This document shows positions 4,723 to 61,832 of a stretch of DNA of 64,000 nucleotides, piece after piece (the stretch's first letter is position 1; every line of letters starts with the position of its first letter). The DNA lies in contig NZ_CP095392.1 in assembly GCF_023008585.1 (NCBI RefSeq), forward strand, positions 62,001 through 126,000, read 5' to 3'. Source of the stretch: Natribaculum breve. Its GTDB lineage: Archaea > Halobacteriota > Halobacteria > Halobacteriales > Natrialbaceae. The notes beneath the pieces were generated by a model. The model worked only from the letters and a program-made list of their open reading frames with translations. It was not told the DNA's origin and ran no database searches. Position numbers and translations under genes: made by a program.

Positions 4723-4749
4723 GTTTCTCCCACCCGACAGGGGTGGAGG
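4723..4749 (+). promoter_or_regulatory. GTTT-hairpin leader, site 1
   Basis: GTTTCT is followed by a hairpin (CTCC/GGAG, with an inner CCACCC/GGGTGG option) that contains GGGGTGG, 10 bases before the ATG at 4760. It belongs to the leader family described in the findings. Confidence 0.5.
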
Positions 4750-4759
4750 TTCGGAGTCG

Positions 4760-5098
4760 ATGTCCGCGCAGACACCCAGTCAAGCAGGCACGCGGATCGA
4801 AGCCCCAGCCATGAACACCACGGTCCGACTCGTCACGACACTCGATAAGTACACTGAACGCACGGCGCCAGGCTGCAACCGGTCACCGATGATGAGTGAC
4901 GATCTCTCTCTCTCTCTCACCCTCGGCCCGCTCTGGGAACGGATTTCCATCGAAGCGATCGGGATTGAAGTCGCCATCTACTCGAGCTCATCGCCGGTCG
5001 CGCATGTCCACCCCGACGACTACCCGGACTCGGTGCACAGCTCGCTCGGTCATGTGGTTACACGGCCGGACAATGCACTTTCACGTGATTGCCTGTGA
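4760..5098 (+). CDS. Hypothetical protein behind a conserved leader
   Basis: A 112-residue frame starting MSAQTPSQAGTRIEAPAM. It has no recognisable domain and contains a low-complexity CT repeat region (positions 4903-4919, read as SLSLSL). Support for translation comes mainly from the GTTT-hairpin leader just upstream. Its 3' end overlaps the next frame by 10 bases. Composition is less acidic than usual, so this may be a decaying gene, possibly once joined to the zinc-ribbon frame downstream. Confidence 0.35.
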   Translation: MSAQTPSQAGTRIEAPAMNTTVRLVTTLDKYTERTAPGCNRSPMMSDDLSLSLTLGPLWERISIEAIGIEVAIYSSSSPVAHVHPDDYPDSVHSSLGHVVTRPDNALSRDCL

Positions 5099-5424
5099 AA
5101 CCTTCTGCTGCTGCTCCCGCTGGTCAGATCCTCGCGTACAGCTGCCCTCGTTGCGAGCACAGGGAGATCTACTACTATACCGATCTCACCCTCTACGACG
5201 ACGAACGCGATCCTGGCGCGAACAGCATCCTCCCCGAGCACGCTCCCGCCGTCCCCGGCAGCGCGATCGACGCCGACGCTGACGTCATCATCTGTCCGAA
5301 CGAGTCGTGCAGACTCGTGCAGTTCCGCCACATCGCGTTCGAACTGCTCCCCCCGACGGCCATGCGCGCTCGTCGCTCGACAGCGGCGGACGAAATGTGC
5401 GCCCTCGCCGAGACCACTCCGTAG
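5089..5424 (+). CDS. Putative zinc-ribbon protein
   Basis: About 110 residues from TTG at 5089, or from GTG at 5095. Two Cys pairs, CPRCEH and CPNESC, about 50 residues apart, could form one zinc ribbon. The tail LVQFRHIAFELLPP looks structured. No name can be given. The start is uncertain because the upstream frame overlaps and neither candidate is an ATG. Confidence 0.45.
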   Translation: MPVKPSAAAPAGQILAYSCPRCEHREIYYYTDLTLYDDERDPGANSILPEHAPAVPGSAIDADADVIICPNESCRLVQFRHIAFELLPPTAMRARRSTAADEMCALAETTP

Positions 5425-5616
5425 TCGATCTCGAGGACAGCTCGTTCCACTCGTCGAGGCACCATCACCCGGGAGAGCCACCACAACTCACCGGCTCCCC
5501 CGCACGCATTTCCCCCTGCACTGAAGGATTGGAGTACCAGGGACCTGGCACTCCCAGCAGTCCCACCCGCCACAGATCACGAACCCCACGGATTCTCCCC
5601 ATGTCGAGGTTCGGTG

Positions 5617-5681
5617 GAACTGCAAACCTGAACCCCCCAGCGCATAGGGTTCCTGTGTCTTCAGACGTAGGGGGATGTCAC
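5617..5681 (+). repeat. Degenerate second IS605-type right end
   Basis: The segment runs GGAACTGCAAACCTGAA, then GGGTTCCTGTGTCTTCAGAC and GGGGGATGTCAC. It follows the same order of blocks as the right end after the TnpB remnant (ACTGCAAACC, GGGATTCCT, TTCAGGCG, GGATGTCAA). The hairpin is weakened. The upstream bases probably hold eroded tnpB sequence, but I cannot follow a frame in them. Confidence 0.45.
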
Positions 5682-5893
5682 GCTTTCTGGGGCCACTCGT
5701 GATCGATTTGTCGGATCATCTCTGCTGCCCGCATTCTGTGTTCGGCCGCGATGATCTCGATGAGTTCCCACGCCCGTTCTTTTCGGGGTGTCTCAACCTG
5801 ATTCGGATTCCCACCAAACGTCGCAAGTGCTTCGACGATGATCGCCCAGTCCTGTTGATGGAAGTCACGTGCCGTGTCTTGCTGATGTCCCAT
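5678..5893 (-). CDS. Small hypothetical protein
   Basis: About 71 residues from the ATG at 5893 (MGHQQDTARDFHQQDWAIIV); an in-frame upstream ATG is at 5932. The core has a helical, protein-like pattern (WAIIVEALATFGGNPNQVET, then ERAWELIEIIAAEHRM). AAGTATGA lies roughly 25 bases before the ATG at 5893 and favours that start. It may be a helical haloarchaeal accessory protein. Function unknown. Confidence 0.45.
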   Translation of the reverse strand: MGHQQDTARDFHQQDWAIIVEALATFGGNPNQVETPRKERAWELIEIIAAEHRMRAAEMIRQIDHEWPQKA

Positions 5894-6083
5894 ACGCTGC
5901 GTGGCTGCGGAATCATACTTGAACCCTCGCATGCGTCACTTCTTCTCGAGTTGCTGTCTCTGAGAGAGTGTTCGGGCGGCTGCACGATACCTCTCCTCTG
6001 GTCCAGGCAGATATGGCAGATCCCTATGATAAATACCAGTACAGAGAGACAAACTGACCGCCAGCACAGAGGTTCCACAGGTG

Positions 6084-6126
6084 GTTTTTCACCCCCCAGA
6101 AGGGTGAGGGGGATCCAAAATCCCCC
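6084..6126 (+). promoter_or_regulatory. GTTT-hairpin leader, site 2, with two exclusive hairpins
   Basis: GTTTTTC at 6084 is followed by 5' arm CCCCC (6092-6096), AGAAGGGTGA, and 3' arm GGGGG (6108-6112). The same GGGGGA can pair with TCCCCC at 6121-6126, so the two hairpins exclude each other. The second ends 10 bases before the ATG at 6137. Confidence 0.6.
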
Positions 6127-6136
6127 GTCGAAGATC

Positions 6137-6556
6137 ATGAGTTCTGACCGACCACAACCACGGCGCACAGACCACGAGTCGACTCGAGACAATACGCTCA
6201 CTCTCTCGCAGCATGGCCGGCGACTCACTGTTCCAAACGAACGGAGCGGTGCCGCGATCGTCTCATTTGTCGACTGGGTGCTCGTCGAGCTCACACACGA
6301 GGAGGTGTTCGCGGAGTACCGATCATCACACGTGTGGGGTATAAAACGAACGCAGTACGTCACCGCTGACGAGTATGGACAGACGTTCTTGAAGCGCTAT
6401 TACGACGAGCGGCTTGGCTGGCACGAAGAGACAATTTCCCGCACTGATCTTCGAATTGAGTTGGTGCATCGGCTCTCGAGAACCCGTCCAGAGACATCTG
6501 ACAGAAGAACCGGCGAGTCTGGTGGCTACGACACGTTTGTCGTGAAACGGATCTAG
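6137..6556 (+). CDS. Conserved small haloarchaeal protein (intact paralogue of 8967-9512)
   Basis: 139 residues from the ATG at 6137 (MSSDRPQPRRTDHEST). The core SFVDWVLVELTHEEVFAEYR, then SSHVWG, TQYVTADEYGQTF and YYDERLGWHEETISR matches the broken gene at 8967-9512 residue for residue over most of its length. That shows a real, selected protein family. The frame is also open upstream, but the leader and the paralogue both point to 6137. Function unknown; the basic tip and acidic core suggest a small soluble protein. Confidence 0.65.
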   Translation: MSSDRPQPRRTDHESTRDNTLTLSQHGRRLTVPNERSGAAIVSFVDWVLVELTHEEVFAEYRSSHVWGIKRTQYVTADEYGQTFLKRYYDERLGWHEETISRTDLRIELVHRLSRTRPETSDRRTGESGGYDTFVVKRI

Positions 6557-8966: not shown

Positions 8967-9512
8967 ATGACTTCTGAGCGACAGCACCCACGAGACCGTG
9001 GTATTGATCGAACACCAGCTCACCGACAGCCCACAGAACCACCCTGGTCCGGCCTCGAGTTACGGGTTCCGAACGACCGGAGTCGTGAGTCACTCATTTC
9101 GTTCGTCGAGTGTGTTCTCGTCGAACTCACGCATGCAGACGTCGGTGCCGAGTATCGATCGTCGAACGTCTGGGGAAGTAATACTGCCGGACGTAAGTCG
9201 TGAAAGATTCTCGCCGTCCCGGGGTGGCGAGAATCTTCACACAGTTACGTCCGATAGTATAAATTGACGCAGTACATCGCCGCCGAGACGACTGGCCAGC
9301 TATTCAGGAAGCGTCATTATCACGAACGGCTCGGCTGGCACGAGCAGACGATGTCTCGGCAGGACGTCCGTGAGGAACTGCTTAATCGCCTCGCACGACC
9401 CGCATCACTGGCGACGAACCAGAGTCATTCCCATCCTGTTGAAGAACCAGATACGTTCCGGGTGAAGCCGACGTGGCAACTTCGAACGGGTCGACGGCCC
9501 GGCGAAAAGTAA
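8967..9512 (+). pseudogene. Paralogue of 6137-6556 interrupted by an 80-bp palindrome
   Basis: The first part (SLISFVECVLVELTHADVGAEY, to SSNVWG) and the second part (TQYIAAETTGQLFRKRHY, then HERLGWHEQTMSR) match the intact gene at 6137-6556 on either side of one breakpoint. The break falls after VWG, exactly where a palindromic insert (9181-9260) sits. The insert brings a stop codon and changes frame, so no full-length product is made. Confidence 0.8.
9181..9260. repeat. 80-bp palindromic insertion (MITE-like)
   Basis: Two 35-base arms (9181-9215 and 9226-9260) are inverted repeats that match at 27 of 35 positions, around a 10-base centre. The outer ends are ATACTGCCGG and CCGATAGTAT. It has no coding capacity and breaks a gene that is intact in a paralogue, so it behaves like a miniature inverted-repeat element. 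No clear target duplication can be defined because one base near the junction differs from the paralogue. Confidence 0.7.
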
Positions 9513-9669: not shown

Positions 9670-9960
9670 ATGACTAATCCAAACCCGATTGACGACACTG
9701 CGGACGATTACAGCCGATTCGAGGCCAAACTCGTTGCCCGTGATCAGGATACAACTCGCGTCGTGACCGCAGATCTCGGCGAGACAACCGCCCGACAGCT
9801 CGTGACTGAACTCATCGATAACGGTGTGGTAACGCCGGTCCCTGGCAAGCGGGTGTTCGTCCACGAGCCAAGTGGGACCGCCTTTGACTCGAGCACTCAG
9901 CTTGCTGTCTTCCATCAAGGCTGGATGGCGGCCCACAACGCCGACAAGGGGGGTGAGTGA
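9670..9960 (+). CDS. Conserved haloarchaeal hypothetical protein
   Basis: 96 residues from the ATG at 9670 (MTNPNPIDDTADDYSRFEAK); another in-frame ATG is at 9658. The spacing from the leader hairpin favours 9670. The segment DLGETTARQLVTELIDNGVV, then VPGKRVFVHEPSGTAFDS looks like a small alpha/beta fold. It shares a TGATG junction with the next gene, so the two are translationally coupled. Function unknown. Confidence 0.6.
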   Translation: MTNPNPIDDTADDYSRFEAKLVARDQDTTRVVTADLGETTARQLVTELIDNGVVTPVPGKRVFVHEPSGTAFDSSTQLAVFHQGWMAAHNADKGGE

Positions 9961-16172: not shown

Positions 16173-16226
16173 GTTTCTGTGCCCTACAAGTGGGTGAAGG
16201 GTAGTCAGAACTGTTCATTGCCCTTC
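16173..16226 (+). promoter_or_regulatory. GTTT-hairpin leader, site 5, with two exclusive hairpins
   Basis: GTTTCT at 16173, 5' arm CCCT (16182-16185), loop ending in GGGTG (16192-16196), 3' arm AGGG (16198-16201). GAAGGG (16196-16201) can also pair with CCCTTC (16221-16226). The ATG is at 16236, 9 bases after the second partner. Confidence 0.55.
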
Positions 16227-16235
16227 GTGAACATC

Positions 16236-16421
16236 ATGGCTTTCAGAGAGATTTACGAGACAACATTCGACGAAGACGTCCAGCCCGCCTCGAGCGCCAG
16301 TCCGTGTCCCAACTGCAACGGACGGGTGACCACCAACGCAGTCGAAACTCGTTGTGAAGACTGTGGTCTCCTTATCGAACCGCAACAATACCAGGCCCAG
16401 AAAAGAGTCAATTCCACTTAG
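16236..16421 (+). CDS. Stand-alone TFB-like zinc ribbon protein
   Basis: 61 residues: MAFREIYETTFDEDVQ, then CPNCNGRVTTNAVETRCEDC. The CPxCxGRVTTN..ET.CEDCGL pattern is that of the N-terminal zinc ribbon of archaeal transcription factor B, which contacts RNA polymerase. The B-finger and the cyclin folds that bind TATA/TBP are absent, so it is not a full TFB. It could act as a competitor or modulator of initiation, or be an evolved remnant. It sits behind leader site 5. Confidence 0.75.
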   Translation: MAFREIYETTFDEDVQPASSASPCPNCNGRVTTNAVETRCEDCGLLIEPQQYQAQKRVNST

Positions 16422-18834: not shown

Positions 18835-18865
18835 GTTTGTCTGCGCCGCGATCGGCTGCGGCGCA
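18835..18865 (+). promoter_or_regulatory. GTTT-hairpin leader, site 6
   Basis: GTTTGT at 18835, a perfect 8-bp stem TGCGCCGC/GCGGCGCA (18842-18849, 18858-18865) with GATCGGCT between, so GGCTG stands where other sites have GGGTG. The ATG follows at 18870. No second partner is visible. Confidence 0.5.
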
Positions 18866-19326: not shown

Positions 19327-19796
19327 TCGTCGCGGTCGCTGATACAGGCCCACTCATTCATCTCGACGAAATCGGTGCGGTTGACGTGCTGTCAGCAGTC
19401 GATGGATTGCTCATCCCTCAGACCGTGTACGAGGAACTCAAGGCAGGTACAGTTCCACCTGCACTCAGCAATCTCGAGTACGAACTCGTCGAGGCTGATC
19501 CGACTGAACTCACAGTGAATCTGAACCTCGATCCCGGTGAAACTGCCGCTCTTGCGGTTGCGTCCGACCGCTCAGCTGTTCTGTTGACTGATGATCTTGA
19601 AGCGCGAGATGCTGCTAACGATCTCAGTATCGAAGTGCACGGTTCAATCGGTGTTATTGTTCTTGCGTATCATCGTGACCAACTTACGAAATCAAAAGCA
19701 GCCGAGCTAATGCGGGCACTACAAACAGAAACAAGCCTATTTATTACGGATTCAGTGGTTGAACAAGGGGTTTCGATGCTTGAAAACTCATCTTGA
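19323..19796 (+). CDS. PIN-domain toxin (DUF3368-like)
   Basis: 157 residues from GTG at 19323, inside the overlap with the antitoxin. VADTGPLIHLDEIGAVDVL supplies the first catalytic Asp; LDPGETAALAVASDRSAVLL and TDDLEARDAANDLSI supply the others. A conserved HGSIGVIVLAYHRDQLTKSK follows, typical of the DUF3368 PIN group. It should be a ribonuclease kept silent by the upstream protein. Confidence 0.8.
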   Translation: MIVAVADTGPLIHLDEIGAVDVLSAVDGLLIPQTVYEELKAGTVPPALSNLEYELVEADPTELTVNLNLDPGETAALAVASDRSAVLLTDDLEARDAANDLSIEVHGSIGVIVLAYHRDQLTKSKAAELMRALQTETSLFITDSVVEQGVSMLENSS

Positions 19797-19881
19797 TTTT
19801 ATGCGCCGGTAATGGGTGCCAGCGCACTGGGTAAGACCAAGCGAACACTGACCAGAGCGTCGGCACAGTGAGGTATCCCAG

Positions 19882-24331: not shown

Positions 24332-24354
24332 GTTTTTCGTGCCCCAACAGGGGT
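24332..24354 (+). promoter_or_regulatory. GTTT-hairpin leader, site 7
   Basis: GTTTTTC at 24332, then GCCCC (24341-24345), AACA, and GGGGTAGAGGC. The stem GCCCC/GGGGT or GCC/GGC is possible. The loop motif reads GGGGTAG. ATG at 24369; no second partner seen. Confidence 0.5.
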
Positions 24355-24368
24355 AGAGGCAACATCCA

Positions 24369-38248: not shown

Positions 38249-38317
38249 GTATTTTGTGAGACCCCTGAGGGGCGGAGGTCTTCTCGAGTTCGATTCGATT
38301 CGATCCGACTCGAGAAG
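38249..38317 (+). promoter_or_regulatory. GTTT-hairpin leader, site 8 (diverged), with a second strong hairpin
   Basis: GTATTTTG at 38249, stem AGACC/GGTCT (38259-38263, 38277-38281) with GGGGCGG in the loop, then a perfect 10-bp hairpin CTTCTCGAGT/ACTCGAGAAG (38280-38289, 38308-38317). The second uses the last bases of the first, so they compete. ATG at 38330, 12 bases on. Confidence 0.55.
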
Positions 38318-39537: not shown

Positions 39538-39567
39538 GTTTGTATGGTGCCAAATGGGTGGACACCA
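39538..39567 (+). promoter_or_regulatory. GTTT-hairpin leader, site 9
   Basis: GTTTGT at 39538, stem TGGTG/CACCA (39545-39549, 39563-39567) enclosing CCAAATGGGTGGA. The stem's last A is the first base of the start codon at 39567, so pairing would cover the start directly. No second partner is needed. Confidence 0.55.
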
Positions 39568-41300
39568 TGACAGATCATCCGACGTTATCGGAGTTCGCGA
39601 CGAATGAAGCGACTGCCTCAAGGCCGGCCAGTCAGCCATCGACTGACGAGACCGTGACGATGACGGCTGACGAGCGGGTCGCAACGTATCTCATCGAAGA
39701 TCAGATGGCGGATCTCACAGACGCAATCCGTGAAGCCGTCCAAAACGGCATCGACAGTCCGGGGTCATCCCGTGTGCTGGTCAGCATCTCACCCGAGCGG
39801 TCGATTATCCTCGATGACGGTGCTGGTGTCGATCTCGAGTCGACCGAGGGACGACGCAACCTGTCGGTGCTTGGTGCGGGAAGCAAACAGCGAGCTGATG
39901 ACGAGACGATCGGTGAGTGGGGCATCGGCAAGGGTGCGATCATCGCGAAGGGAGTCGTTCGTATCTGGAGTCACAACACCGCACTGTGCTTTGACTATCG
40001 CAATCGACGCGATTCGAGGCCGTGGGCAGACGTCAGCGGTCGTGACGGCCAGCTCGTGGATGCTGAGCATCATCTCGAGGGGATGCTCGTCGAGATCGAC
40101 CACTACGAAGACGAGGTTCCAAATCCGGACAGCTACCGCTGGCGGCGCTACGTTCGCGATCTTCGCAAACGCTTCGCGTACGTGCAGTCCCGGACAGGCG
40201 TCACGGTCGTGATCAATGACGAGCCGGTCGACAAGGGCGATCCACTCGAGGCGGTGGTGGACTCGCCACACCCATCGCTCACACGCGAAACTGAAGATGT
40301 GATTCTCGCACTCGAGTACACACCCCACGAGGGGCTCGACATCTACAGCAACGGTCTGTATGTGACGACGAAACGGGAGTACGGAGTCGGCGGGGTCGTC
40401 GTCTCGAAGGGGAACTTGACGCTGAACTTTGCCCGCAACGATATCCAGTCGGGCTGTGATCGGTGGCAACGGATCGACGACGCACTCGAGCAGGCACGTG
40501 ATAAGCTGTATACGGATGTCTCGGACGATCGGCTGACTGCCGAGAGTCGAGAGGTAATGATCGAAGCGATGGCGTCCGAGTCATCGGACGAGCAGTGGGC
40601 CGATCGCAAGCTGTTCCAGCTAGCAACGGAGTCCCGCATCAGCCTCAAGGAGATCCAGGCGGCCCCGAAAATCGGGTGGGTCGGCGGTGCCGAAAAAGGC
40701 GCGGACAAACTCGTCGAGCGTGGTTACGTCGTCCTCGATACAAGTGATTCGGCGACCCAGCGACTTCGCGATCTCGCCACTGACGAGGACACATCGATAA
40801 CGGTGCCGGAGACGTTCGATGTTGGCGAACAAGCAGAGTCAGAGGGCGTCTGGACTGGCTATCATCGGGTTGAGGACGAATCGCAGTTGAACGCTGATCA
40901 GCAGCGGTATCTTCGCTTCGCTCGAGTACTCGCACGAGAGCTTGGGATTGAGCGAGACGTGTACTACGGTGAGGCAAGTGCCGATGCCTGGACTGACGGC
41001 AGGACGTACATCGTGATCACCGACTCCGCCGTGACGAGCAGGCAGCGTGCAGTCTGGATGCACGACCTGTATCTCGTGGTGTTACACGAAGCCGCTCACG
41101 AAACCTCGAGTCGTGATCGACCCTCGCACGGACATCACTTCGAGAGTACGTTTCGGTCGCTTGTTGAGGATCCAGAAAATCGAAGTTCGTTCGCGGAGCT
41201 TGTCCAGCAGGTCGTCGACGAGGGATTCGAGTCCGTGTTCGACAAGTATGAGGTAGATCTCCAGCTGAGCGAAGGCGTCTCCTCTGGCCAATTTCGATAA
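39567..41300 (+). CDS. GHKL ATPase fused to a HEAAH-type domain
   Basis: 577 residues from the ATG at 39567, chosen because the leader ends there. The N-terminal GHKL ATPase fold shows the N box REAVQNGID (near 55), G1 ILDDGAGVD (near 81) and G2 GEWGIGKGA (near 115), as in MORC, MutL and Hsp90-like ATPases. The middle is a transducer-like beta region. The C terminus has LVVLHEAAHETSS (near 508) and a following HGHHFESTF, which suggest a zinc hydrolase. This combination is unusual. It could be a plasmid maintenance or defence protein. Confidence 0.75.
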   Translation: MTDHPTLSEFATNEATASRPASQPSTDETVTMTADERVATYLIEDQMADLTDAIREAVQNGIDSPGSSRVLVSISPERSIILDDGAGVDLESTEGRRNLSVLGAGSKQRADDETIGEWGIGKGAIIAKGVVRIWSHNTALCFDYRNRRDSRPWADVSGRDGQLVDAEHHLEGMLVEIDHYEDEVPNPDSYRWRRYVRDLRKRFAYVQSRTGVTVVINDEPVDKGDPLEAVVDSPHPSLTRETEDVILALEYTPHEGLDIYSNGLYVTTKREYGVGGVVVSKGNLTLNFARNDIQSGCDRWQRIDDALEQARDKLYTDVSDDRLTAESREVMIEAMASESSDEQWADRKLFQLATESRISLKEIQAAPKIGWVGGAEKGADKLVERGYVVLDTSDSATQRLRDLATDEDTSITVPETFDVGEQAESEGVWTGYHRVEDESQLNADQQRYLRFARVLARELGIERDVYYGEASADAWTDGRTYIVITDSAVTSRQRAVWMHDLYLVVLHEAAHETSSRDRPSHGHHFESTFRSLVEDPENRSSFAELVQQVVDEGFESVFDKYEVDLQLSEGVSSGQFR

Positions 41301-49277: not shown

Positions 49278-51414
49278 TGATGTAAGCAAGATGTCCAAAG
49301 CCGTATGGCTCTAAGTGAGAGTGAAGTTCTTGTTCGACTTGACGACGGTTCTCAGCAGAGCGAATTAATACTTTTGCTCTTCTCAACTCCTGTTCAATAA
49401 CCTTCCGAGCAGTTGCATCACCCTGTTCAGCTGTCAGGCCTGGAAGCGTGATCATGTCATAGATCACCGCCTTCTCTTTCCCCTCAGCCTTCCGCAGCAC
49501 ACGGCCTCGACGCTGAACGAATTGGCGTTTGTTTGTTGAACTGGCAATCAGCACACCGGTCGGGCAGTTAGGAACATCCACCCCTTCGTCCAGACAGTTA
49601 ATTGCCAGCAGATAGTCGATCACACCTTTTTCGAACTTGTAGAAGGCCTTATTCTGCTCTTCGTCAGACATATCCGAGACGTAGACTGCGAACGATTTCT
49701 GCTCGTTCTTGAGTTCGCATTTTACCACATCCACTTGCTCGTTGTCCTCACAGAAGATGATCGCAGGCGTAGGATGATCACTTTGAAGGAAGTCTCTGAA
49801 CCGGTCCGGTTTCGAATTCGCCTTCTTCTTGATTTTGGCCCGCTTCCTTAGCAAGGTTTCCTGCTGCTCTTCAAGATCCGGTGCTGGAGAATCTTTACCG
49901 CTTAGCTGCCCGCTGACCTGTCCGATCCGTTTCGTATAGTCAGCGAAGTCTTCGTACTCCTCAGCATCAAGTTCACAGATGATCGGATGGTACTCGTATT
50001 CGGTAAGATACCCGTTATCGATCGCGTCCTGGGTTTTGAACTCGAACTCGTTGTTCCCGAAGTAGTTCCGGATCACCTTCGTACCTTCCTCATCCCACTG
50101 CCGATCAGGAGTTGCTGAAAGACCGATCCGGCGGCCAGCATCAATATCAAATAGACGCTGATACGTTGGGGCTCCATAGTTGTGGGTTTCGTCAGCGATA
50201 AGCTGCAATCGTTCTGGCGGGATGAAGTCCATGTACCGCTGGAAGGCCTCACCTGACGCTGTATGGATCGTGGTGAGGATTACCTGCTTCGGTGTGTTGT
50301 GGATCAGTTCCTCGTTGTTGATCCGGTACGGGTTGACGATTCGGGCGATTTCATCCCGCCAGTTGGTCTCACCACGGCACTGCAGGATACTGACATCGTC
50401 TCCGAACACGTCCTGTGTTTCATCCGCCCATTGATCAAGTAGCGGGGATTGCGGAACAACGATTAGGGTGAGACGTCCATCGGCCTGTAACCGGACTGCA
50501 CGAAGTGCTGTATACGTCTTCCCGGTCCCTGTCGCCATCGCAAAAATCCCATTGTGCTCATTGTCGATCCACCAGTCAATCGCTTCGGCCTGGTGTGGCC
50601 AGAGATCACGGCCTGCGTCAGAGCTATCGACTGTCTCAGAGCCTTCCTTGTGGAATACATCTAAGGCTGGCTTCCCGTCAATCGTCTCTGGGCTGTGTTC
50701 TTTCAGTCCGTCTTCGATGGCTTCAGGGAGCTCTTTGACAACGATTTTCGGATCATTGTTCTTCCAAAGGTCGTTGAAGTCCTGCTGTTTGTCGTGTACC
50801 CGGAACTCGTCGACATCCCTCCAGTTGCAGAAGACGTCGAACGACTCGTAGTTATCCGTCCACGCCAGCTCGGTTTCATTGATCGATCCGGAGAAAGCGA
50901 CCTTATTCTCGTTTCCGTCGGTGAAGATCCCTTTCTTCTCATGATAGTGACTGAAAGGATTGATATCCTTACCCTGCCGCATGAACGCCACACGGATCTC
51001 GAGCAGCCCCTCCTTCACCATCCATGCCAGACATTTGAACCGGTTGCGTTTCAGATGATCTGAGAACTGGTCCGCAGTTAGACCGCGGTGAAGCGAATCC
51101 TCCAAAATCTGGTTCTCCGCATTCACTCCTTCCTCGAGAGCTTCAATGTCCTCCTCTGAAAGTCGCGGGCTCACCACCATCCGCATCGTCCCGCCATTCA
51201 CGATCAACTGGGAGATACCTCGAGCAGCGTTCGCTAACGACTTGCTGTCGAAGTACCCTGCAGCACGGTCATATCGCTTCGTACGCTGTAAACACGGGAT
51301 GTAAAATTCTTCCAGAAGATCGTTTTTCCCCGTCCGGTAACTCCGGTCAAGTGGAAGACTTTGCAGGCCGTCACGACTACTTGTTTCTTCGTCGGCCTCA
51401 CCGGTATCTACCAT
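49267..51414 (-). CDS. Helicase with N-terminal phospholipase-D-like nuclease domain
   Basis: 715 residues. Residues about 40-200 form a PLD-like fold with one HxK motif HEKKGIF (near 157) and GSINETELAW (near 178). The rest is a superfamily 2 helicase: ATGTGKTYTAL (near 295), LIADETHNYG (near 408), GLSATPDR (near 431) and QRRGRVLR (near 636). The PLD half can act as a nuclease when paired in a dimer. It follows dndA by 31 bases and is the first gene of the four-gene module linked to modification. Confidence 0.85.
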   Translation of the reverse strand: MVDTGEADEETSSRDGLQSLPLDRSYRTGKNDLLEEFYIPCLQRTKRYDRAAGYFDSKSLANAARGISQLIVNGGTMRMVVSPRLSEEDIEALEEGVNAENQILEDSLHRGLTADQFSDHLKRNRFKCLAWMVKEGLLEIRVAFMRQGKDINPFSHYHEKKGIFTDGNENKVAFSGSINETELAWTDNYESFDVFCNWRDVDEFRVHDKQQDFNDLWKNNDPKIVVKELPEAIEDGLKEHSPETIDGKPALDVFHKEGSETVDSSDAGRDLWPHQAEAIDWWIDNEHNGIFAMATGTGKTYTALRAVRLQADGRLTLIVVPQSPLLDQWADETQDVFGDDVSILQCRGETNWRDEIARIVNPYRINNEELIHNTPKQVILTTIHTASGEAFQRYMDFIPPERLQLIADETHNYGAPTYQRLFDIDAGRRIGLSATPDRQWDEEGTKVIRNYFGNNEFEFKTQDAIDNGYLTEYEYHPIICELDAEEYEDFADYTKRIGQVSGQLSGKDSPAPDLEEQQETLLRKRAKIKKKANSKPDRFRDFLQSDHPTPAIIFCEDNEQVDVVKCELKNEQKSFAVYVSDMSDEEQNKAFYKFEKGVIDYLLAINCLDEGVDVPNCPTGVLIASSTNKRQFVQRRGRVLRKAEGKEKAVIYDMITLPGLTAEQGDATARKVIEQELRRAKVLIRSAENRRQVEQELHSHLEPYGFGHLAYINEY

Positions 51415-51445
51415 CGATTATTGTATACCGGTTTGAAATATGAGG

Positions 51446-52633
51446 TCAGTTTATTTGTAGTTTTCTCAGACGATTCACCGCATTGATCACTTGATCGGCT
51501 ACCACATCGATCTCCTCCTCTGTATTATCTTTCCCAAGGCCGAACCGTATCGTAGAGTGCCAACGTGATTCATCGCCGCCAAGAGCTTGCAATACATGGG
51601 AGGCTTCAACCTTGCCTGTTGTACAGGCTGATCCTGCTGAGACAGCGATTTCAGGCTGCAGATTCTGCACCAGTCCTTTATTCTCAACACCGAGGAAGCT
51701 GACGTTCAAATTGTTTGGCAGCCGGTTATCCAGATCACCGTTCAAAACGATATCATCGAGTTCGTCGCTGAGGCGTTCCCAGAGCTGTGTTTGGAGCGAT
51801 TCGACATGTTCGATCCGTTGCTCACGGTTCTTCTCTGCCAGCTGCACCGCCTTCCCGAATCCGACGATCCCTGGCACGTTCAACGTACCCGACCTCCAGC
51901 CACGCTCATGACCGCCACCCTGAATTAGCGGTTGGAGTTTGACCTTCGGATTACGTCGACGAACATAGAGAGCTCCGATGCCTTTCGGCCCGTAGATTTT
52001 GTGGCTGGACAGCGACATCAGGTCGATACCCAGCTCTTCTACATCGAGCGGGACGTATCCCAGTGCCTGAACTGCGTCCGTATGGAAGTAGACATCGTTG
52101 TCCTTCGCGATTTGGCCGATTTCTTCGAGTGGTGTGATCGTCCCGATCTCGTTGTTCGCCGCCATCACGGACACGAGAATCGTGTCGTCACAGATCGCGT
52201 CCTCGATATCAGCAGGGTCGATTTGGCCGTGCTCATCTACAGGAAGGTATGTGACTTCGAAGCCCTCCTCTTCCAAACTCTCACAGACCTCGAGAACAGC
52301 CTCATGCTCGGTGACAGAGGTGATTATGTGGTTGCCTTGATCGTTTTCAGCGGCGTACTCGGCAACTCCTCTTACCGCTAAGTTGTCCGACTCAGTTGCC
52401 CCGCTTGTGAAGATGATCTCCTCTTTTCGGGCATTGATTGTCTCAGCAATCTGTTCGCGGGCTTGGCTTACTGCTTTCTTTGCCTGTGAGCCGTAGAGAT
52501 GGTCGTCGCTGGCAGGGTTACCGAATTTCTCGGTGAAGTACGGCACCATCTCGTCGACCACTTCTTCATCAACAGGTGTTGTTGCGTGGTGATCAAGATA
52601 GATCGGAGTTTCAACGTCACTCAAGGCTATCAC
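51446..52633 (-). CDS. dndA: DndA-type cysteine desulfurase
   Basis: 395 residues of aminotransferase class V fold. YLDHHATTPVDEEVV opens the fold, SLSSHKIYGPKG carries the PLP lysine (near 210), and SAGSACTTGKVEAS carries the catalytic Cys (near 335). It takes sulfur from cysteine to supply DndC. Its position directly after dndE, with a 17-base overlap, marks it as the Dnd enzyme and not a housekeeping IscS. Confidence 0.9.
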   Translation of the reverse strand: MIALSDVETPIYLDHHATTPVDEEVVDEMVPYFTEKFGNPASDDHLYGSQAKKAVSQAREQIAETINARKEEIIFTSGATESDNLAVRGVAEYAAENDQGNHIITSVTEHEAVLEVCESLEEEGFEVTYLPVDEHGQIDPADIEDAICDDTILVSVMAANNEIGTITPLEEIGQIAKDNDVYFHTDAVQALGYVPLDVEELGIDLMSLSSHKIYGPKGIGALYVRRRNPKVKLQPLIQGGGHERGWRSGTLNVPGIVGFGKAVQLAEKNREQRIEHVESLQTQLWERLSDELDDIVLNGDLDNRLPNNLNVSFLGVENKGLVQNLQPEIAVSAGSACTTGKVEASHVLQALGGDESRWHSTIRFGLGKDNTEEEIDVVADQVINAVNRLRKLQIN

Positions 52634-53030
52634 TCCGGATTACTCCAGTATCGTCTTTAATCTCCTCTGGCAGCAGGTCATAAAGGTCACTGGGATCATC
52701 CAACCGTCCATACAGGTGGAACACACCACGGTTCAGATGGGCCACGAACTCGTCGTAGAGGTCTTCTTCTGGATCTTTGTCCTCCTGTAGAAGCCGCTCT
52801 TTCACCATCGCCATGTACAGAGCGTCGTGCTCACCGAGCAGGGTGTACCGGTTGAACACTTTCCCATCGGAATCGTACTCTTTCGGGTTTGGCGGTCGTG
52901 GCTCGTTCAGTGAGTAGCAGAGGCCGATCCTACACAGGTAGTTTGGCGTAATATCGAAGTCACCTTTCAACTGGTTCAGCCGGAACGTGGCATCGCTACC
53001 GATCTGTATACGGTTGAATTCCTGACTCAT
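52617..53030 (-). CDS. dndE: DndE
   Basis: 137 residues. The conserved DndE core FRLNQLKGDFDITPNYLCRI, then GLCYSLNEP lies at residues 16-45. DndE is a small protein that binds nicked DNA and is needed for phosphorothioation. Start overlaps the dndD stop by 4 bases (ATGA), and its end overlaps dndA. It is a little longer than the bacterial form, with an acidic C-terminal extension (EFVAHLNRGVFHLYGRLDDP). Confidence 0.88.
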   Translation of the reverse strand: MSQEFNRIQIGSDATFRLNQLKGDFDITPNYLCRIGLCYSLNEPRPPNPKEYDSDGKVFNRYTLLGEHDALYMAMVKERLLQEDKDPEEDLYDEFVAHLNRGVFHLYGRLDDPSDLYDLLPEEIKDDTGVIRSDSLE

Positions 53031-55051
53031 TGTATTACCTCCTCTAATTCAGCAGGCTGAGCTGGTTCTGTCCAGAAGTATCCTTTCGATACCTCGGAAT
53101 ACCCATCCGACTCTTGATAGTCCAAATGATACGCTCTGGAAACAGAGTCAGACAGTTCCTCATAGTGCTCATTATCGATCTCCGTGTCCGTCGAGAACAA
53201 GAGCACCTGATGCGAGGCCTGTGGGAAGAAGTTCTCCACCAAGCTATCGCGGTGTTTCTGGTCAAGACGGCCAAGTGGAGTGTCAATGATGAAGGGAAGC
53301 GGTCGATCGGAGATTTCCGCTAATGCCCAGAGCAGTGAGGTGGCGAAGATCTGGCGTTCACCTGCAGAAAGCTGGGACTGATCCTTGTAGTCACCGTGAT
53401 CTGTCTCAATCGAGATCGTCAAGGTCTCCTCATCGATATTGATCCCGCTGTAGAACTCGCTTTTGTTGGAGAGAGTAAGATAGCGTTCGCTCAGCACAGA
53501 TTCTAAATGCTGCAGTTTCTCCTTGGCAAGCTCCATCCGGTAGTCCTCTAAGACGTTTTGGACATCGGATGCTAACTCTGCACGGTTAGATACGTCTTCT
53601 ATCCGTGACTTCTCCTCCAGCTTTTTATCGATCTGGCGTTTCACCTGCTCGAGCTTGTTCTCGGTGACGCTAAGCTCCTCTTCCAATTCCTCGATTTCAC
53701 CGCTTAGCTCCACGCGTTGCTCGGTGAGTTCGTTCAGGTCCTCGATCAACGGCGAGATCACATCCTCATCAGGAGCATGGCCCAACTGTTGCTCGATATC
53801 CCGCTGTCGCCGCATTTCAGCCTCCAGTTCAACCGTGAGTTCACCCAGCTTTGGCGGCACCTCGTTCAAGGCTTTCTCCACCACGGAGTACATCTGCTGG
53901 CGTTCAACCTCTGAGAACTGGTTGACCAGCTGGACTTCTGCATCCTCGTCGACAAGCCGGTCCTCTACCTGCTCTTGGATCTGATCGGTGAGGTTTTCAG
54001 CTTCATCAGGATCAATATCTGCTTCCTCCCAGATCCGGTCATCAGATAGAACAGCATCCAGTTCATCCTTCAGCCTATCCTGAGCTGCTGCCTCCCTCTG
54101 AGCCTTCGCCTCGTTCTGCAGCCGTTCTTGTACGCTTTTACAGAGGTCAGGTGCTAAGGCGAATGGGTAAGCACCGCTGGCTACTCCCTGAATCCGTTCT
54201 TCTAAGTTCTCAACATTGGCCGAGATCTCAGCTCGTTTCTCTTTGAGGTCTTCCCGTTTCTTCGCGAAAGATCCGCCTTCTTGGGAGAGTTTGTCTTCCT
54301 TCCGGCTGATCTTCTCTTCGAGTTCCTCAAGTTCGGTTTCTTTCTCCGCTTTCTCCTTTTTCAGGGTTTTCTTCCGGTCACGAAGTTCCTCTTGTTCCTC
54401 TTGAAGGTTATTGAGGTCGTCGCTAAGGCCTCCTACGTCGCTTTCGTTCAGCTTTTGCTGAATATAAATCGAGAGGTCAGCATCCAATCGATCGATCATC
54501 TCGAGGCCGAGTAGCGAGAACAGTGACTCCTCGAAGTTATCATCGTCTTCGATAGCACTCGCCAATTCCTGTATTTTCTCGCCGTCGAAGAAGAACAGTT
54601 CGGAGACACCTGGCGGGATCAGTTCCTTCAGGAAGTCTTGCCACTGATCTTCGTCAAGATCTCTTGGTGCCTCCCCGTTCCGTTTGACCTCCAGGTTCTC
54701 AACGATGCTTTTGCCACGGTCACGCCACGACCGTTCAACAGTATAGTGATCGACCTCGCCAAAGTGAGCGTAGTCGAATTCTAATCGGATCTTTGCAGAT
54801 TCCGCGGACCCGTCCGCATAGTCATGCAGATTCTGCTCGATCTCTTTTTTGTACTCTTTCTCGCTGGTTCGTTGGCCAAGGGCACTGCGGCCGTGGAGAC
54901 AGACTTGGATCGCGGTGAAGAGCGTGGTTTTTCCGGCACCATTCAGCCCTCCGAACAGGATGACCGGGGATTCCGGTGTTGTAGTTAGGTCAAACTCGTT
55001 GCGGCCGCGGTACGGACCAAAATCCTCTATAACGATTTTATTGAGTTTCAT
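53027..55051 (-). CDS. dndD: DndD ATPase
   Basis: 674 residues of SMC/Rad50 plan. Walker A GGLNGAGKTT (near 34-43), FFFDGEKIQELA, acidic coiled coil with a single Cys at the hook (APDLCKSVQ), signature LSAGERQIFA (near 557) and Walker B FIIDTPLGRLD (near 590). DndD hydrolyses ATP and is thought to open or nick the target DNA during sulfur insertion. Starts 24 bases after dndC. Confidence 0.92.
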   Translation of the reverse strand: MKLNKIVIEDFGPYRGRNEFDLTTTPESPVILFGGLNGAGKTTLFTAIQVCLHGRSALGQRTSEKEYKKEIEQNLHDYADGSAESAKIRLEFDYAHFGEVDHYTVERSWRDRGKSIVENLEVKRNGEAPRDLDEDQWQDFLKELIPPGVSELFFFDGEKIQELASAIEDDDNFEESLFSLLGLEMIDRLDADLSIYIQQKLNESDVGGLSDDLNNLQEEQEELRDRKKTLKKEKAEKETELEELEEKISRKEDKLSQEGGSFAKKREDLKEKRAEISANVENLEERIQGVASGAYPFALAPDLCKSVQERLQNEAKAQREAAAQDRLKDELDAVLSDDRIWEEADIDPDEAENLTDQIQEQVEDRLVDEDAEVQLVNQFSEVERQQMYSVVEKALNEVPPKLGELTVELEAEMRRQRDIEQQLGHAPDEDVISPLIEDLNELTEQRVELSGEIEELEEELSVTENKLEQVKRQIDKKLEEKSRIEDVSNRAELASDVQNVLEDYRMELAKEKLQHLESVLSERYLTLSNKSEFYSGINIDEETLTISIETDHGDYKDQSQLSAGERQIFATSLLWALAEISDRPLPFIIDTPLGRLDQKHRDSLVENFFPQASHQVLLFSTDTEIDNEHYEELSDSVSRAYHLDYQESDGYSEVSKGYFWTEPAQPAELEEVIQ

Positions 55052-55074
55052 GGATTCGCTGTAGATATTTTCTC

Positions 55075-56559
55075 CTATATTGCAGGGCCTTCGTACTGCC
55101 AGTCTTCGACGCTGTCTTCGCCTTCTGTTTCGGCGATGATTTCTTCTGGGTCACGCCAGTCTTCTTTCAGCACTTTATCAATCTCGTTGTAGATCGAGGC
55201 CCGGCGTTTCATGCCGTGGTGCTGAAGCTCGGTGTCGAGAAGACGCTGAATGAGCTCCGGCGGAACATCGTGTGATTCCGCGACCTTTTTCAGAACTTTT
55301 TCCTCGGTTTCGCTGAAGGAGCCGAGATCGTCTTTCACCCAGTCCAGTTCTTCGCCCATGACCTCTTCGTAGATCTTGGGCACTGAGTCACGCCAGTCCG
55401 AGCGTTCTTTCCGCCACAGTCGGCGGATCTCCCGAAGTTCTTCTTCCTTGATCAGCACCATCTCCTCCTCATCATCAGGAAGCCGTGAGTTGACTTCCTT
55501 CTGGGTTTCAAGCAGCTTCCGCAGCAGGTCTTTGCAGAACTCGAATTTGTGGGCTCGAGGGATGATCCCGCCGTCACCGTTCGTCTTTTCGCGGACTCTG
55601 CCATGCCGCCGGCCTTTCATCTGTCGGAACTGGGGTTTGACCTCCGGGTCCTGGGTTGACTTAAGGAAGTCACGGAACTCGAGCAAGGGTTCCATCCACT
55701 CGTCGCCCTCGTCGATCATGTTCTGCATCGCTTTGTCTTCGCTGACAACGGTGCAGGTCCAGCATCCGAACCGGCTATTCCCACACGAAGGTGTTTTGGT
55801 GTCGATCACCATCGGGCACTCGTCATCAGCTTCCTGGTAGAGAGCGGCAAGGTCACGGTTGCTCTTTCCCCATGGGTTGTCGACCTGCATCAGGTAGCTC
55901 CAGACGTCGTCGACAGTGAAGTCCTCAATCGGGGTGTAGACGAAGGCGTTCGCGAACTTGGAGTGGCGAGAGAGGATGCTGCCTTCGATCTCGTGAAGCT
56001 CCATAACCTGCTTCCGAGTTGCACTCTCGGACTTCCGGGCACCTAATATGACGATGACCTCACCGTGCTCGGAGACCTTTTCCTCAATGAATCGGTCAGC
56101 TGGATCGATCTTGAGACGTTCCGTGCACCATCGGAAGGTCTGGTTGGGTGCGGGGTAGCCACGGCCGATCAGGTTCACCCAGAACGAGTCATCAACCTTC
56201 GGAGTGACCTTGTGGGCCTTGAACGGCAGATCTTTCTTCTCGGCAAATTCGTTGATGTTCTCGAGAGTGCTCGTGATATGGTTGACGATTTTCGGGGTTT
56301 CAACCAGTGTGTCGCTCGAGATTACGTAGACGGTTTTGTTCTGCTGATCTTTAGGGAGGTCTGCGATGGCATGCCAGATCAGTTGGAGGGCGGTTGTTGA
56401 GTCTTTGCCACCGCTGTAACCGATCACCCATTGCCGGTCGTCAGCAAGGTATGCTTCTTGGATTTCATTTTGTATGTCTTCCAAGGACCGTTCTTCGAAG
56501 ACAGAGGTTCCTTCTTCTTGTTGCGTGTCAGGAACATTAGAGATATCAAAGGAACTCAT
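55075..56559 (-). CDS. dndC: DndC sulfurtransferase
   Basis: 494 residues. The PP-loop SGGKDS (residues 49-54) and FRWCTERLKI mark a PAPS-reductase-like ATP pyrophosphatase. PSCGNSRFGCWTCTVV (near 255-268) holds the Cys residues for an iron-sulfur cluster; this exact segment is typical of DndC. The C terminus is an extra helical domain. DndC accepts sulfur from DndA and gives it to DNA. It is first in the operon, behind a TATA-like box. Confidence 0.93.
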   Translation of the reverse strand: MSSFDISNVPDTQQEEGTSVFEERSLEDIQNEIQEAYLADDRQWVIGYSGGKDSTTALQLIWHAIADLPKDQQNKTVYVISSDTLVETPKIVNHITSTLENINEFAEKKDLPFKAHKVTPKVDDSFWVNLIGRGYPAPNQTFRWCTERLKIDPADRFIEEKVSEHGEVIVILGARKSESATRKQVMELHEIEGSILSRHSKFANAFVYTPIEDFTVDDVWSYLMQVDNPWGKSNRDLAALYQEADDECPMVIDTKTPSCGNSRFGCWTCTVVSEDKAMQNMIDEGDEWMEPLLEFRDFLKSTQDPEVKPQFRQMKGRRHGRVREKTNGDGGIIPRAHKFEFCKDLLRKLLETQKEVNSRLPDDEEEMVLIKEEELREIRRLWRKERSDWRDSVPKIYEEVMGEELDWVKDDLGSFSETEEKVLKKVAESHDVPPELIQRLLDTELQHHGMKRRASIYNEIDKVLKEDWRDPEEIIAETEGEDSVEDWQYEGPAI

Positions 56560-60408: not shown

Positions 60409-60563
60409 TGGTTGTCCGAGAATTGGGGCAGGGTCGGACGGACGATCTCGCCTATCGGTAACTACAGCTACGTACTGAACAGCCCGTTCACTCTACGATA
60501 AGGCGGAAATGTTCTCACGCTAATTGATTTCTGCAGAGTCGAGACTGATGATTAGGTGTAAAA

Positions 60564-60830
60564 ATGGATCTAATTTATTACAGACAGAATGGTCGAAATA
60601 TCGAACATCCACACTGGCAGCCTTGTCTTCTTCCAATAGGAATGATACGACCATCTGAGGTGGTCGTAGCGGCATATACTGCACCACAGTCTACACATAC
60701 CCCGATTGATCTACACTCATCTGCGGAACTCATCGCACCATATATTAGGATGTCTACTTTGATAAAGAAATTTGGAGAGAAGAGAAGACAGTCTGGTATT
60801 TCGGTCACTACAGTCGAATACTGGAGATAG
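60564..60830 (+). CDS. Doubtful small ORF
   Basis: 88 residues: MDLIYYRQNGRNIEHPHWQP, then GMIRPSEVVVAAYTAPQSTH. It is less acidic than usual and lacks a family. Kept because the gap around it is long and the codon pattern is not absurd. Confidence 0.25.
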   Translation: MDLIYYRQNGRNIEHPHWQPCLLPIGMIRPSEVVVAAYTAPQSTHTPIDLHSSAELIAPYIRMSTLIKKFGEKRRQSGISVTTVEYWR

Positions 60831-61146
60831 ACTTCAGTTAAATTTGAGGTGAATGAAATATGGTCGCCACGATACTTCCTTCACCTATATTGAACAGGGC
60901 TTTCGAGCAAATCCGGTCAAAATAGTGTCCGAGAACTCGGGTGGCCTCGGACAGACTAGGCCCGACCTCTCTCGAGCACCACTACAAACTCGATTGCTGT
61001 CGGCTTTTGTCCGACAGGCAGGCATCACAGACACCATCAATCTCAAACAGCATGAGAACCGTGACGACATGAGGTCTGACTCAGCCAAGAAGAAGTAAAG
61101 CGGGTACTCGAGGCTGCCGACGGAACCCCATAGCGGATCGCATTCG
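60831..61146. other. Non-coding stretch
   Basis: I see no gene here. One hairpin TGTCGG/CCGACA (about 60999-61018) is present. The region leads into leader site 10. Confidence 0.35.
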
Positions 61147-61189
61147 GTTTTTCTGCGCCTGAGAGGGTGAGGCGCAACGTAGTGTGCCT
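61147..61189 (+). promoter_or_regulatory. GTTT-hairpin leader, site 10, with two exclusive hairpins
   Basis: GTTTTTC at 61147, perfect stem TGCGCCT/AGGCGCA (61154-61160, 61170-61176) with GAGAGGGTG between. AGGCGCA can also pair with TGTGCCT (61183-61189) using one G-U. ATG at 61201, 11 bases on. This is the clearest case of the shared layout. Confidence 0.65.
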
Positions 61190-61200
61190 CGAGGCCACGA

Positions 61201-61761
61201 ATGAGTATAGACCAACCACTCCAGAGCGACTCGCATCGAAATCGACCAACAAACGAGTACACGAGCGACCGTGATCGCAGCTACTCAGGCGATGTTGCCC
61301 GACTGAACGGACATGAGCTCGTCGCGATCGACGAGTGGCTGCCAGGCGCGGAGCCAACACCATACGAAATCGACCTCAGCGATGGCTACGAATATCGGAC
61401 ACGCTACTGGCGCTGCAGAAAGTGCGGCCAAGAACGCACCCATCGCGACGAGTTCTCCGTCCCCTGCGACAACCCCCAGCCGGCGACTGCCCTCGAGGCA
61501 GGTGGCTACTCGATCGAGGACCCACGAACGCGCCGTGCACTGAACGAGAAGTTGGACGTCTGCTTTGCGACAGTGGGCCCGATCTACGAAGTCGGTAGTG
61601 AGAGCGGGAACACCTACGAGGTCGATATTGAGGCAACGACGTGTACGTGCCCCGATTTCGAACAGCGTCAGCCAGACAACGGCTGCAAGCATCTGAGGCG
61701 TGTCGATCTCGAGATCCGGACGGGACTTGTCCCTGCGCCAGATGGGACGTTCAGCCACTGA
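61201..61761 (+). CDS. SWIM zinc-finger protein
   Basis: 186 residues. A Cys pair CRKCGQERTHRDEFSVPC lies in the middle, and the C-terminal part has CTCPDFEQRQPDNGCKH (near 147-163), the CxCx(n)CxH SWIM motif that binds DNA or protein. N-terminal residues 1-50 are charged and disordered. SWIM proteins in haloarchaea are common on plasmids and may help repair or recombination. It belongs to the leader regulon (site 10). Confidence 0.8.
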   Translation: MSIDQPLQSDSHRNRPTNEYTSDRDRSYSGDVARLNGHELVAIDEWLPGAEPTPYEIDLSDGYEYRTRYWRCRKCGQERTHRDEFSVPCDNPQPATALEAGGYSIEDPRTRRALNEKLDVCFATVGPIYEVGSESGNTYEVDIEATTCTCPDFEQRQPDNGCKHLRRVDLEIRTGLVPAPDGTFSH

Positions 61762-61789
61762 CTGTCGAGTGACGAGATCACTCGAGACG

Positions 61790-61832
61790 GTTTGTATCCC
61801 CCGAAAGGGGTGCGGGGGCTCGAAAGGAGCCC
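61790..61832 (+). promoter_or_regulatory. GTTT-hairpin leader, site 11, with two exclusive hairpins
   Basis: GTTTGT at 61790, stem CCCCC/GGGGG (61798-61802, 61814-61818) with GAAAGGGGTGC between. GGGCTC (61816-61821) pairs also with GAGCCC (61827-61832). ATG at 61846, 13 bases on. Confidence 0.6.

Follow-up and report, generated by a model that had tools for sequence, protein, structure and literature searches.

Strand-locked hairpin elements before genes of haloarchaeal conjugative plasmids: a candidate expression signal for the transferred strand

The 64,000-nucleotide stretch of Natribaculum breve DNA analysed here (the window; 62001-126000 of contig C3, 273.8 kb) carries a family of short hairpin elements that recurs on haloarchaeal plasmids with a VirB4-type type IV secretion system (T4SS), where it lies before gene starts on the strand that also encodes VirB4. 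The element comprises GTTTNT, the 5' stem arm A, a loop of nine nucleotides (N R A K G G G Y G) and the 3' stem arm B, to which a following segment C is usually complementary; it spans ~31 nt and is conserved mainly in structure, its stems varying freely. The family, its pairing, its position before starts, its strand lock, the TATA-poor DNA upstream and the boundary at GTTT are computational results in which we have high confidence. We consider it about an even bet (probability roughly 0.5) that this one cis element, of which the sites are copies, drives expression of an establishment (anti-defence) regulon on conjugative plasmids of haloarchaea and is used on the transferred single strand.

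An earlier note on this DNA had proposed one element family at 11 sites, with pairing kept through sequence change, and had read it as an RNA regulatory element or a binding site for an RNA/DNA-binding regulator. Direct reading located all 11 sites: each has a stem rich in G and C, a loop whose end reads GGGTG or a looser version of it, and close 3' of these a start codon; one has GTATTT in place of GTTT[N]T. A twelfth site at 19795 was added by eye, and the family proved wider than noted. A crude descriptor (GTTTNT followed by a perfect stem of at least 5 bp) found 11 places on the plus strand of the window, eight of them earlier-listed sites, and five on the minus strand, against a mean of 2.4 per strand and a maximum of 7 in Markov-resampled sequence; with GGG required in the loop, four remained on the plus strand and none on the minus strand (0.28 expected). 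The sites at 16173, 24332 and 38249 escaped this descriptor. A covariance model, R1, was built from 30 sites, 11 in the window (10 of the earlier-listed sites plus 19795) and 19 in related plasmids, aligned with end gaps only, with 38249 outside the training set. The 11 earlier-listed sites all match R1, at 16.7-34.4 bits, the two weakest being 16173 and 18835 (E 0.13-0.14), and the window together with six related loci gives 74 matches at E ≤10, 69 of them on the plus strand.

Stem pairing is under selection. The covariation score of the structure with an 8-bp stem and a 9-nt loop is 0.334, compared with 0.142 in shuffles (0/500 reach the observed value) and 0.09-0.19 when the partners are slid; two counting measures of compensatory change are less clear, being equalled by 86/500 and 18/500 shuffles. 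Pairing is also seen in sites chosen by GTTTNT and loop only (the stem-blind set, whose word scores derive from stem-selected sites): at the strictest cut-off the VirB4 strand has 281 of them and the opposite strand 48, with 3.15 and 1.10 Watson-Crick pairs, respectively, of five possible. Among 163 non-redundant stem-blind sites, Watson-Crick pairing at stem positions 1-4 (0 being the loop-closing position) exceeds that in all 1000 arm swaps, the observed value being matched by 14 and 15 of 1000 swaps at positions 5 and 6 and by 298/1000 at the loop-closing position. C-G and G-C pairs exchange at stem positions 4-6 of the non-redundant sites, and GTTTNT starts 13-16 nt 5' of the loop in 78/87 sites. 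The suggestion that the element is undescribed also agrees with the searches made: at gathering scores no Rfam 15 family matches it in the window, where the sole Rfam family is sot0042 (sense overlapping transcript RNA) at 1764-1928, and in the literature searched, which left preprints and most subscription journals outside, no title or abstract opening describes such an archaeal element.

The element is locked to the VirB4 (T4SS) strand. The N. breve genome gives 35 R1 matches at E ≤10, of which 30 fall on C3 and C4, all on the plus strand, one on C2 and four, at E ≥0.68, on C1; C3, which has a VirB4-type T4SS, and C4 (104.6 kb) each carry a VirB4 gene, both on the plus strand. When these two contigs are searched alone, 43 matches appear at E ≤3, the best 30 (E ≤0.16) all on the plus strand and four of the other 13 on the minus strand. 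Related DNA is found on many haloarchaeal plasmids (168 records), as is VirB4 of this kind; the annotated records from Natrinema, Halorubrum, Salarchaeum, Natronomonas and Natribaculum hold T4SS and accessory genes, and the crude descriptor finds the element on them before other genes and with other stems. R1 matches all 19 other complete haloarchaeal T4SS plasmid records, with at least 204 matches at E ≤0.5, and among the matches listed there are 5-17 per plasmid, every one on the VirB4 strand of its plasmid in 19/19 cases; 14 of the 19 (W06-W19) had contributed no sequence to R1. Two sites lie on the minus strand of Halobacterium salinarum plasmid PHS3, near 261075 and 261961. The element-bearing plasmids measure 90-284 kb and come from 16 haloarchaeal genera. 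The earlier note was right in suggesting a plasmid regulon.

The same polarity emerges from a second scanner, a position weight matrix plus stem that is separate from R1, applied to 20 replicons (C3, C4, W01-W15, W17-W19) rebuilt and rotated to VirB4, which lies on the plus strand in all 20 (identity 72-100%, but 37% in W01, a distant match). At score ≥20 it finds 196 sites on the VirB4 strand vs nine on the opposite one, and at score ≥25 it finds 135 vs one. All nine opposite-strand sites lie within genes and none has a co-oriented next gene; 184 of the 196 VirB4-strand sites do, and 153 have a start codon at -30..100 nt (median 29 nt; 9.4% for random positions). Predicted genes in the 8-60 kb zone are themselves biased (773 on the VirB4 strand, 320 on the other). 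In the zone 8-70 kb, 34/34 hairpin-led families lie on the VirB4 strand, compared with 294:232 for the other families (24 ties) and 210 vs 176 for the transcription-unit heads of non-led families, and homologues of led genes are on the VirB4 strand in 322 cases and opposite in six, so that the strand lock is not a mere by-product of gene orientation. Five of the six opposite homologues are distant (25-37% identity), and the sixth is an inverted, shortened copy on W01 that keeps a hairpin-like sequence (14.9 bits).

The covariance-model search of haloarchaeal genomes that the earlier note had proposed extends this association to 116 genomes of the order, some of whose plasmids overlap W01-W19. 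With the element called at E 0.01 and VirB4 at E 1e-50, 62 genomes have the element and 76 have VirB4: 55 have both, seven the element only (G025, G028, G034, G039, G045, G065 and G099, with VirB4 below detection), 21 VirB4 only and 33 neither (Fisher p 1.6e-8). Of 144 matches listed outside the N. breve genome, 88 are within 150 kb of a VirB4 gene on the same contig and 84 of these agree with it in strand; 35 of 37 contigs are wholly concordant among the matches listed, including those with VirB4 relatives at only 36-41% identity. No match at E ≤0.002 was found in 52 genomes of the phylum outside the order. Same-strand runs of listed matches also occur where no VirB4 was detected (G099:C1:207-255 kb, G034:C1:164-171 kb and G028:C8:111-125 kb), perhaps representing decayed or differently equipped elements.

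There is no clear TATA signal upstream of the element. Information content stays at or below 0.2 bit at every position between -70 and -1 of GTTT (87 non-redundant sites), and TATA-like words occur at 6/87 hairpin sites vs 120/736 control genes. Opposite-strand zone genes show an AT peak at -35..-26 (0.55-0.58), compared with 0.31-0.37 for hairpin genes at the same place, where the hairpin often sits. A TATA-type score above 5 at -42..-20 of GTTT is reached by 6% of hairpin genes vs 3% farther up, and 40 of 181 clean sites come after an opposite-strand gene.

GTTT also marks a boundary in the plasmid DNA. Modules of up to 6 kb at 88-96% identity start at GTTT with unrelated DNA upstream, and among 106 module pairs at ≥90% identity (pairs that are not independent) 52 lose upstream similarity, 35 of them within -10..+19 of GTTT. 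This clustering indicates that the shared unit usually begins at GTTT. For opposite-strand genes, measured from the start codon, 65/86 broken pairs lose similarity at -120..-41 and 13/86 at -10..+9. In the 90-100% identity class, 47 left ends of similarity fall at -5..+10 of GTTT vs 15 at -60..-5; around the next GTTT that class has no right ends at -10..+25, and the interval -5..+25 holds 15 of them at 80-90% identity and 18 at 70-80%.

The competing second helix that the earlier note had described is supported well beyond the window. Segment C, which lies in the spacer, is complementary to arm B plus the last part of the loop, and over 68 non-redundant sites the mean best B:C helix score is 17.4 vs 12.9 (standard deviation 0.35) with spacers swapped, with p ≤0.05 for 38% of single sites. 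A helix of at least five Watson-Crick pairs is found at 57/64 sites vs 30 with swapped spacers, and segment C ends 8-10 nt 5' of the start in 24/53 helices. Inside these helices there are 42 G.U and nine A.C appositions (57 helices), compared with 22 and 11 in the 30 swapped helices; the number of A.C per helix thus falls by about half and that of G.U does not fall, the pattern that sense-strand RNA would give. The RNA minimum-energy fold contains B:C in four of the five window leaders with a C segment, which by reading is missing at some sites, such as 18835 and 39538. For eight window sites the RNA folding z ranges from -3.07 to -0.65, and in DNA folding the template strand forms A:B in 6/8. 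An RNA role as originally proposed is therefore backed by the second helix, whereas the first hairpin gives no such strand signal (below).

The genes behind the element resemble those of bacterial anti-defence islands. Most replicons have their first strong sites ~8-15 kb past the start of VirB4, and the stretch dense in sites commonly extends to 36-66 kb. ArdC-like genes are present on 20/20 replicons, all on the VirB4 strand, and the element precedes 22/24 ArdC homologues of a wider set; in 13/20 replicons (W02-W04, W07-W11, W13-W15, W18 and W19) no clean site (score ≥18) follows the last ArdC. An Orc1/Cdc6 gene lies within 5 kb after ArdC in three annotated records (W01, W02 and W12); the stretch examined for W14 ends inside ArdC. 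The TFB family is led in 16/25 homologues, and a ~150-aa protein, usually the first led gene after the T4SS, in 18/22; DUF6735, DUF6166 and many uncharacterised families bring the total to more than 30. PADLOC on ten proteins gave nothing telling. Also encoded on these plasmids are an NrS-1 polymerase HBD domain protein after the T4SS genes (L003:15252-16505 and L006:10680-11942; E about 1e-31), possibly a primase-polymerase for second-strand synthesis, and a zone protein of 472 aa that matches the Piwi domain weakly (L141:15291-16709; E 0.0025, below cut-off).

In published accounts, archaeal conjugative plasmids have no recognised relaxase and the choice between single- and double-stranded transfer is described as open, with pilus structures suggesting single-stranded DNA (PMC9905601, PMC12857230). 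Strand lock, position before starts, lack of a clear promoter, the GTTT boundary and the anti-defence-island-like gene content together lead us to read the hairpin as an expression signal on the transferred strand, and we place moderate confidence in its single-strand use. The plasmid would enter the recipient as one single strand, on which A:B would fold and serve as a hairpin promoter, allowing ArdC, the TFB-family factor and other early genes to be transcribed ahead of second-strand synthesis. If the transcript begins at or before B, B:C could then fold just 5' of the start codon, protecting it or setting its translation, and conversion to double strand would switch the signal off. The fuller statement, that haloarchaeal plasmids are delivered as single-stranded DNA with an archaeal class of hairpin promoter, built unlike Frpo, that switches on a scattered regulon (ArdC, the plasmid TFB and ~30 mostly uncharacterised families) before the second strand is made, many of the leaders having a further hairpin in the RNA, we hold more tentatively, at a little short of even odds.

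Several observations weigh against this proposal. The GC-rich stems (mostly C-G/G-C pairs, and variable) rebuild no TATA-like core; mismatches in A:B give no strand signal (G.U 5, A.C 7; 6 and 6 in a second test); and B:C, as evidence for RNA, is compatible with an RNA switch alone as well. AT content is raised at -60..-21 of GTTT (0.51-0.59) in the 39 cases of a divergently oriented upstream gene, probably marking the promoter of that gene but possibly one for the hairpin gene. An RPA/SSB-like gene is present on 20/20 replicons and the hairpin precedes it on none, although ssb of F is Frpo-led. PF25227, a family of nicking proteins known from archaeal viruses and plasmids (PMC13107129), is absent from 18/19 plasmids, with a broken match in the other; the N. 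breve genome has one long match on C1 and one partial match on C4, and on these sequence matches PF25227 is not the nicking enzyme of these plasmids. Pfam found no relaxase among ten larger plasmid proteins, and as neither relaxase nor oriT was recognised on these plasmids, strand polarity and single-strand transfer are what we infer. The lock itself has exceptions: 12/196 sites have their next gene on the other strand and 9/196 lie inside predicted genes; G011:C7 agrees with VirB4 in 1/2 matches and G018:C2, with two opposed VirB4 genes, in 3/5; more than 150 kb from VirB4, 2/5 listed matches agree and 3/5 do not; led families beyond 70 kb are by majority on the VirB4 strand in eight cases and opposite in two; and sites on C3 extend ~210 kb from VirB4. 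Site 4723 is the weakest window case, in its RNA fold (weakest of eight) and in the singleton family of its open reading frame (ORF).

The main rival is a cis-regulatory RNA, in which transcripts from promoters farther upstream, or from read-through, would carry A, B and C, and the choice between A:B and B:C would control translation or termination of the plasmid regulon, perhaps through a plasmid-encoded binding protein. The covariation of A:B, the excess of B:C complementarity over swapped controls, the G.U and A.C counts and the B:C helix in the folds of the window leaders all fit it well. It does not predict the strand lock, however; nor does it sit easily with the lack of a clear upstream promoter, with modules that retain the element while all upstream DNA differs, with clean sites that follow an opposite-strand gene or with sites that have no C, and we judge it rather unlikely. 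The strand lock, the lack of a clear promoter signal, the GTTT boundary and the link to conjugation, all of which the earlier note missed while identifying the element family correctly, favour the hairpin itself as the signal over a plain RNA leader from an ordinary promoter. An intrinsic terminator was rejected by reading, since the sense strand has its T-run ahead of the stem and the other strand would have an A-run behind it; leader peptides starting in the loop were likewise rejected, their frames being inconsistent.

A double-stranded explanation, with GTTTNT replacing TATA as a non-canonical promoter for a plasmid TFB or TBP and the inverted repeat as a protein site, would suit the 13-16 nt spacing of GTTTNT from the loop, the TFB-family proteins that the plasmids encode and the annotated TBP encoded by one of them; we consider it improbable, since it gives no reason for the strand lock and leaves the B:C helix unexplained, and an operator is unlikely where stem sequence changes while pairing stays. 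The annotated TATA-box-binding protein gene lies at L004:775-1335 and, like xseA-xseB (exonuclease VII subunits) of L003, L004 and L005, upstream of the T4SS genes. Recombination sites, with attC-like or relaxase-like hairpins shuffling gene cassettes and expression incidental, could account for left similarity ends clustering at GTTT even at 90-100% identity and for the fixed orientation of the element, which is typical of integron cassettes; but there is no matching cluster of right ends around the following GTTT, for which reason integron-like cassettes were rejected, and the hairpin, which comes after the boundary, is bound to the start codon behind it. In the control set of opposite-strand genes similarity mostly breaks off 41-120 nt 5' of the start; loss just above a cis unit is thus common, and a boundary such as that at GTTT can be functional. 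Recombination seems to us very improbable. Chance, as GC-rich hairpins near starts in GC-rich DNA, might be entertained for single weak sites such as 4723 and is a negligible prospect for the family, being rejected by the descriptor counts, the covariation, the strand lock and the stem pairing of stem-blind sites.

If the single-strand signal is correct, the strand and direction of transfer become readable from sequence, with oriT predicted a little past ardC, towards the distal end of the zone. The strand-locked hairpin regulon makes the question of single- or double-stranded transfer directly testable, in giving an expected polarity and an oriT region, and it singles out more than 30 gene families, most of them uncharacterised, as likely to serve establishment or anti-defence.

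The window sites are collected in Table 1. The accessory gene types named in the earlier note are upheld for a TFIIB-type zinc ribbon (gene 16236-16421; Pfam Zn_Ribbon_TF 5.2e-7) and for ArdC (gene 38330-39265; ArdcN 1.5e-5, Peptidase_M78 7.2e-5); the SWIM match of gene 61201-61761 (0.0022) is below the family cut-off, and GHKL is unsupported at Pfam E 0.01. No Pfam family was found for the 139-aa and 577-aa products of genes 6137-6556 and 39567-41300, and the 78-aa ORF behind 8914 appears truncated relative to a 154-aa homologue. A start codon after each hairpin is not universal: at 39538 the ATG is inside the 3' arm, and at 61790 no ORF of more than 50 aa starts 20-100 nt from GTTT. Site 61147 (listed as C3 75293) has a second helix with p 0.02, and sites resembling the variant at 19796 occur at L001:49782 and L006:32121.

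Table 1. Hairpin elements in the window, with one inverted copy on another plasmid
Feature	Position	Strand	R1 score	Following gene or ORF	Remarks
Hairpin element	4723..4753	+	25.6 bits	ORF 4760-5098 (112 aa, singleton family)	RNA fold z -0.65
Hairpin element	6084..6112	+	30.5 bits	gene 6137-6556 (139 aa)	second segment pairs with 3' arm
Hairpin element and second segment	8914..8944	+	33.5 bits	ORF 8967-9203 (78 aa)	
Hairpin element and second segment	9611..9641	+	23.3 bits	gene 9670-9960 (96 aa)	
Hairpin element	16174..16204	+	16.7 bits, E 0.14	gene 16236-16421 (61 aa)	
Hairpin element	18835..18865	+	16.9 bits, E 0.13	gene 18870-19049 (59 aa)	start 4 nt past stem; RNA fold z -2.92
Hairpin element, GATTTTA variant	19796..19826	+	26.2 bits	ORF 19882-20538	in training set
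Hairpin element	24333..24363	+	23.0 bits	gene 24369-24596 (75 aa)	
Hairpin element	38252..38282	+	26.6 bits, E 2.5e-4	ArdC-like gene 38330-39265	outside training set
Hairpin element	39538..39568	+	28.4 bits	gene 39567-41300 (577 aa)	RNA fold z -3.07
Hairpin element and second segment	61147..61177	+	29.1 bits	gene 61201-61761 (186 aa, SWIM-like)	second segment ends 9 nt 5' of gene
Hairpin element and second segment	61790..61820	+	34.4 bits (window best)		fold z -2.99
Inverted element copy with shortened gene	L002:21373-21403	-			the one inverted copy, given for W01 in the text

Other features of the window include, at 24872-33965 on this T4SS plasmid, a metallophosphatase (Mre11-like), an AAA_23 protein (Rad50-like), NurA and an ORF weakly resembling HerA, the latter two separated by a 446-aa ORF on the minus strand; HerA-NurA has been proposed as a source of single-stranded DNA for DNA transfer in archaea (PMC9905601). 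Two 446-aa ORFs on the minus strand, one at 2081-3421, in a region that matches an ISH6 transposase, and one at 31519-32859, are perhaps copies of a single insertion sequence. A phosphorothioation-like (Dnd) cluster occupies 47038-56559 on the minus strand, with an aminotransferase class V, a PAPS reductase carrying a small DndD-associated domain, a helicase and two ATPases of the AAA_23 type.

Among known systems, the closest in setting are the Frpo/ssi single-stranded DNA promoters of the F and ColIb-P9 leading regions (PMC9849209, PMC11541004). In bacteria the leading-region anti-defence genes lie on the transferred strand (PMC11541004, PMC9849209), and ArdC acts in the recipient (PMC7213743). 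Like the archaeal element, Frpo/ssi are hairpins just 5' of establishment or anti-defence genes on conjugative plasmids, in more than one copy per plasmid and with the genes on one strand. Frpo, as described, rebuilds -10 and -35 boxes; the archaeal stem rebuilds no Frpo-like promoter, and the element is therefore not filed as a member. It further differs from Frpo in being archaeal and ~31 nt long, in its number of copies per plasmid, in its freely varying stems and in the second, competing helix towards the start codon. EGeRS1 of the pLS20-family plasmids offers a second parallel, with repeated inverted-repeat regions before establishment operons including ardC and, as described, no strong ordinary promoter found and a mechanism still unknown; its authors argue against a single-stranded DNA promoter on the grounds of which strand is nicked (PMC8708921), a case that, by analogy, warns that strand polarity decides. 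EGeRS1 is described as 400-600 bp, conserved and present in a Bacillus plasmid family, in contrast to the short archaeal element with its near-featureless upstream DNA (≤0.2 bit per position). Riboswitch and attenuator leaders also form mutually exclusive helices ahead of a start codon, as A:B and B:C do here with compensatory changes; unlike them, the element matches no Rfam family at gathering scores, precedes more than 30 gene families on one kind of replicon and is locked to one strand. Integron attC sites, finally, are structure-conserved single-strand hairpins with a GTT-like edge and a fixed orientation, and the element resembles them in these features, differing from attC in being tied to the following start codon rather than bounding a cassette at its right end.

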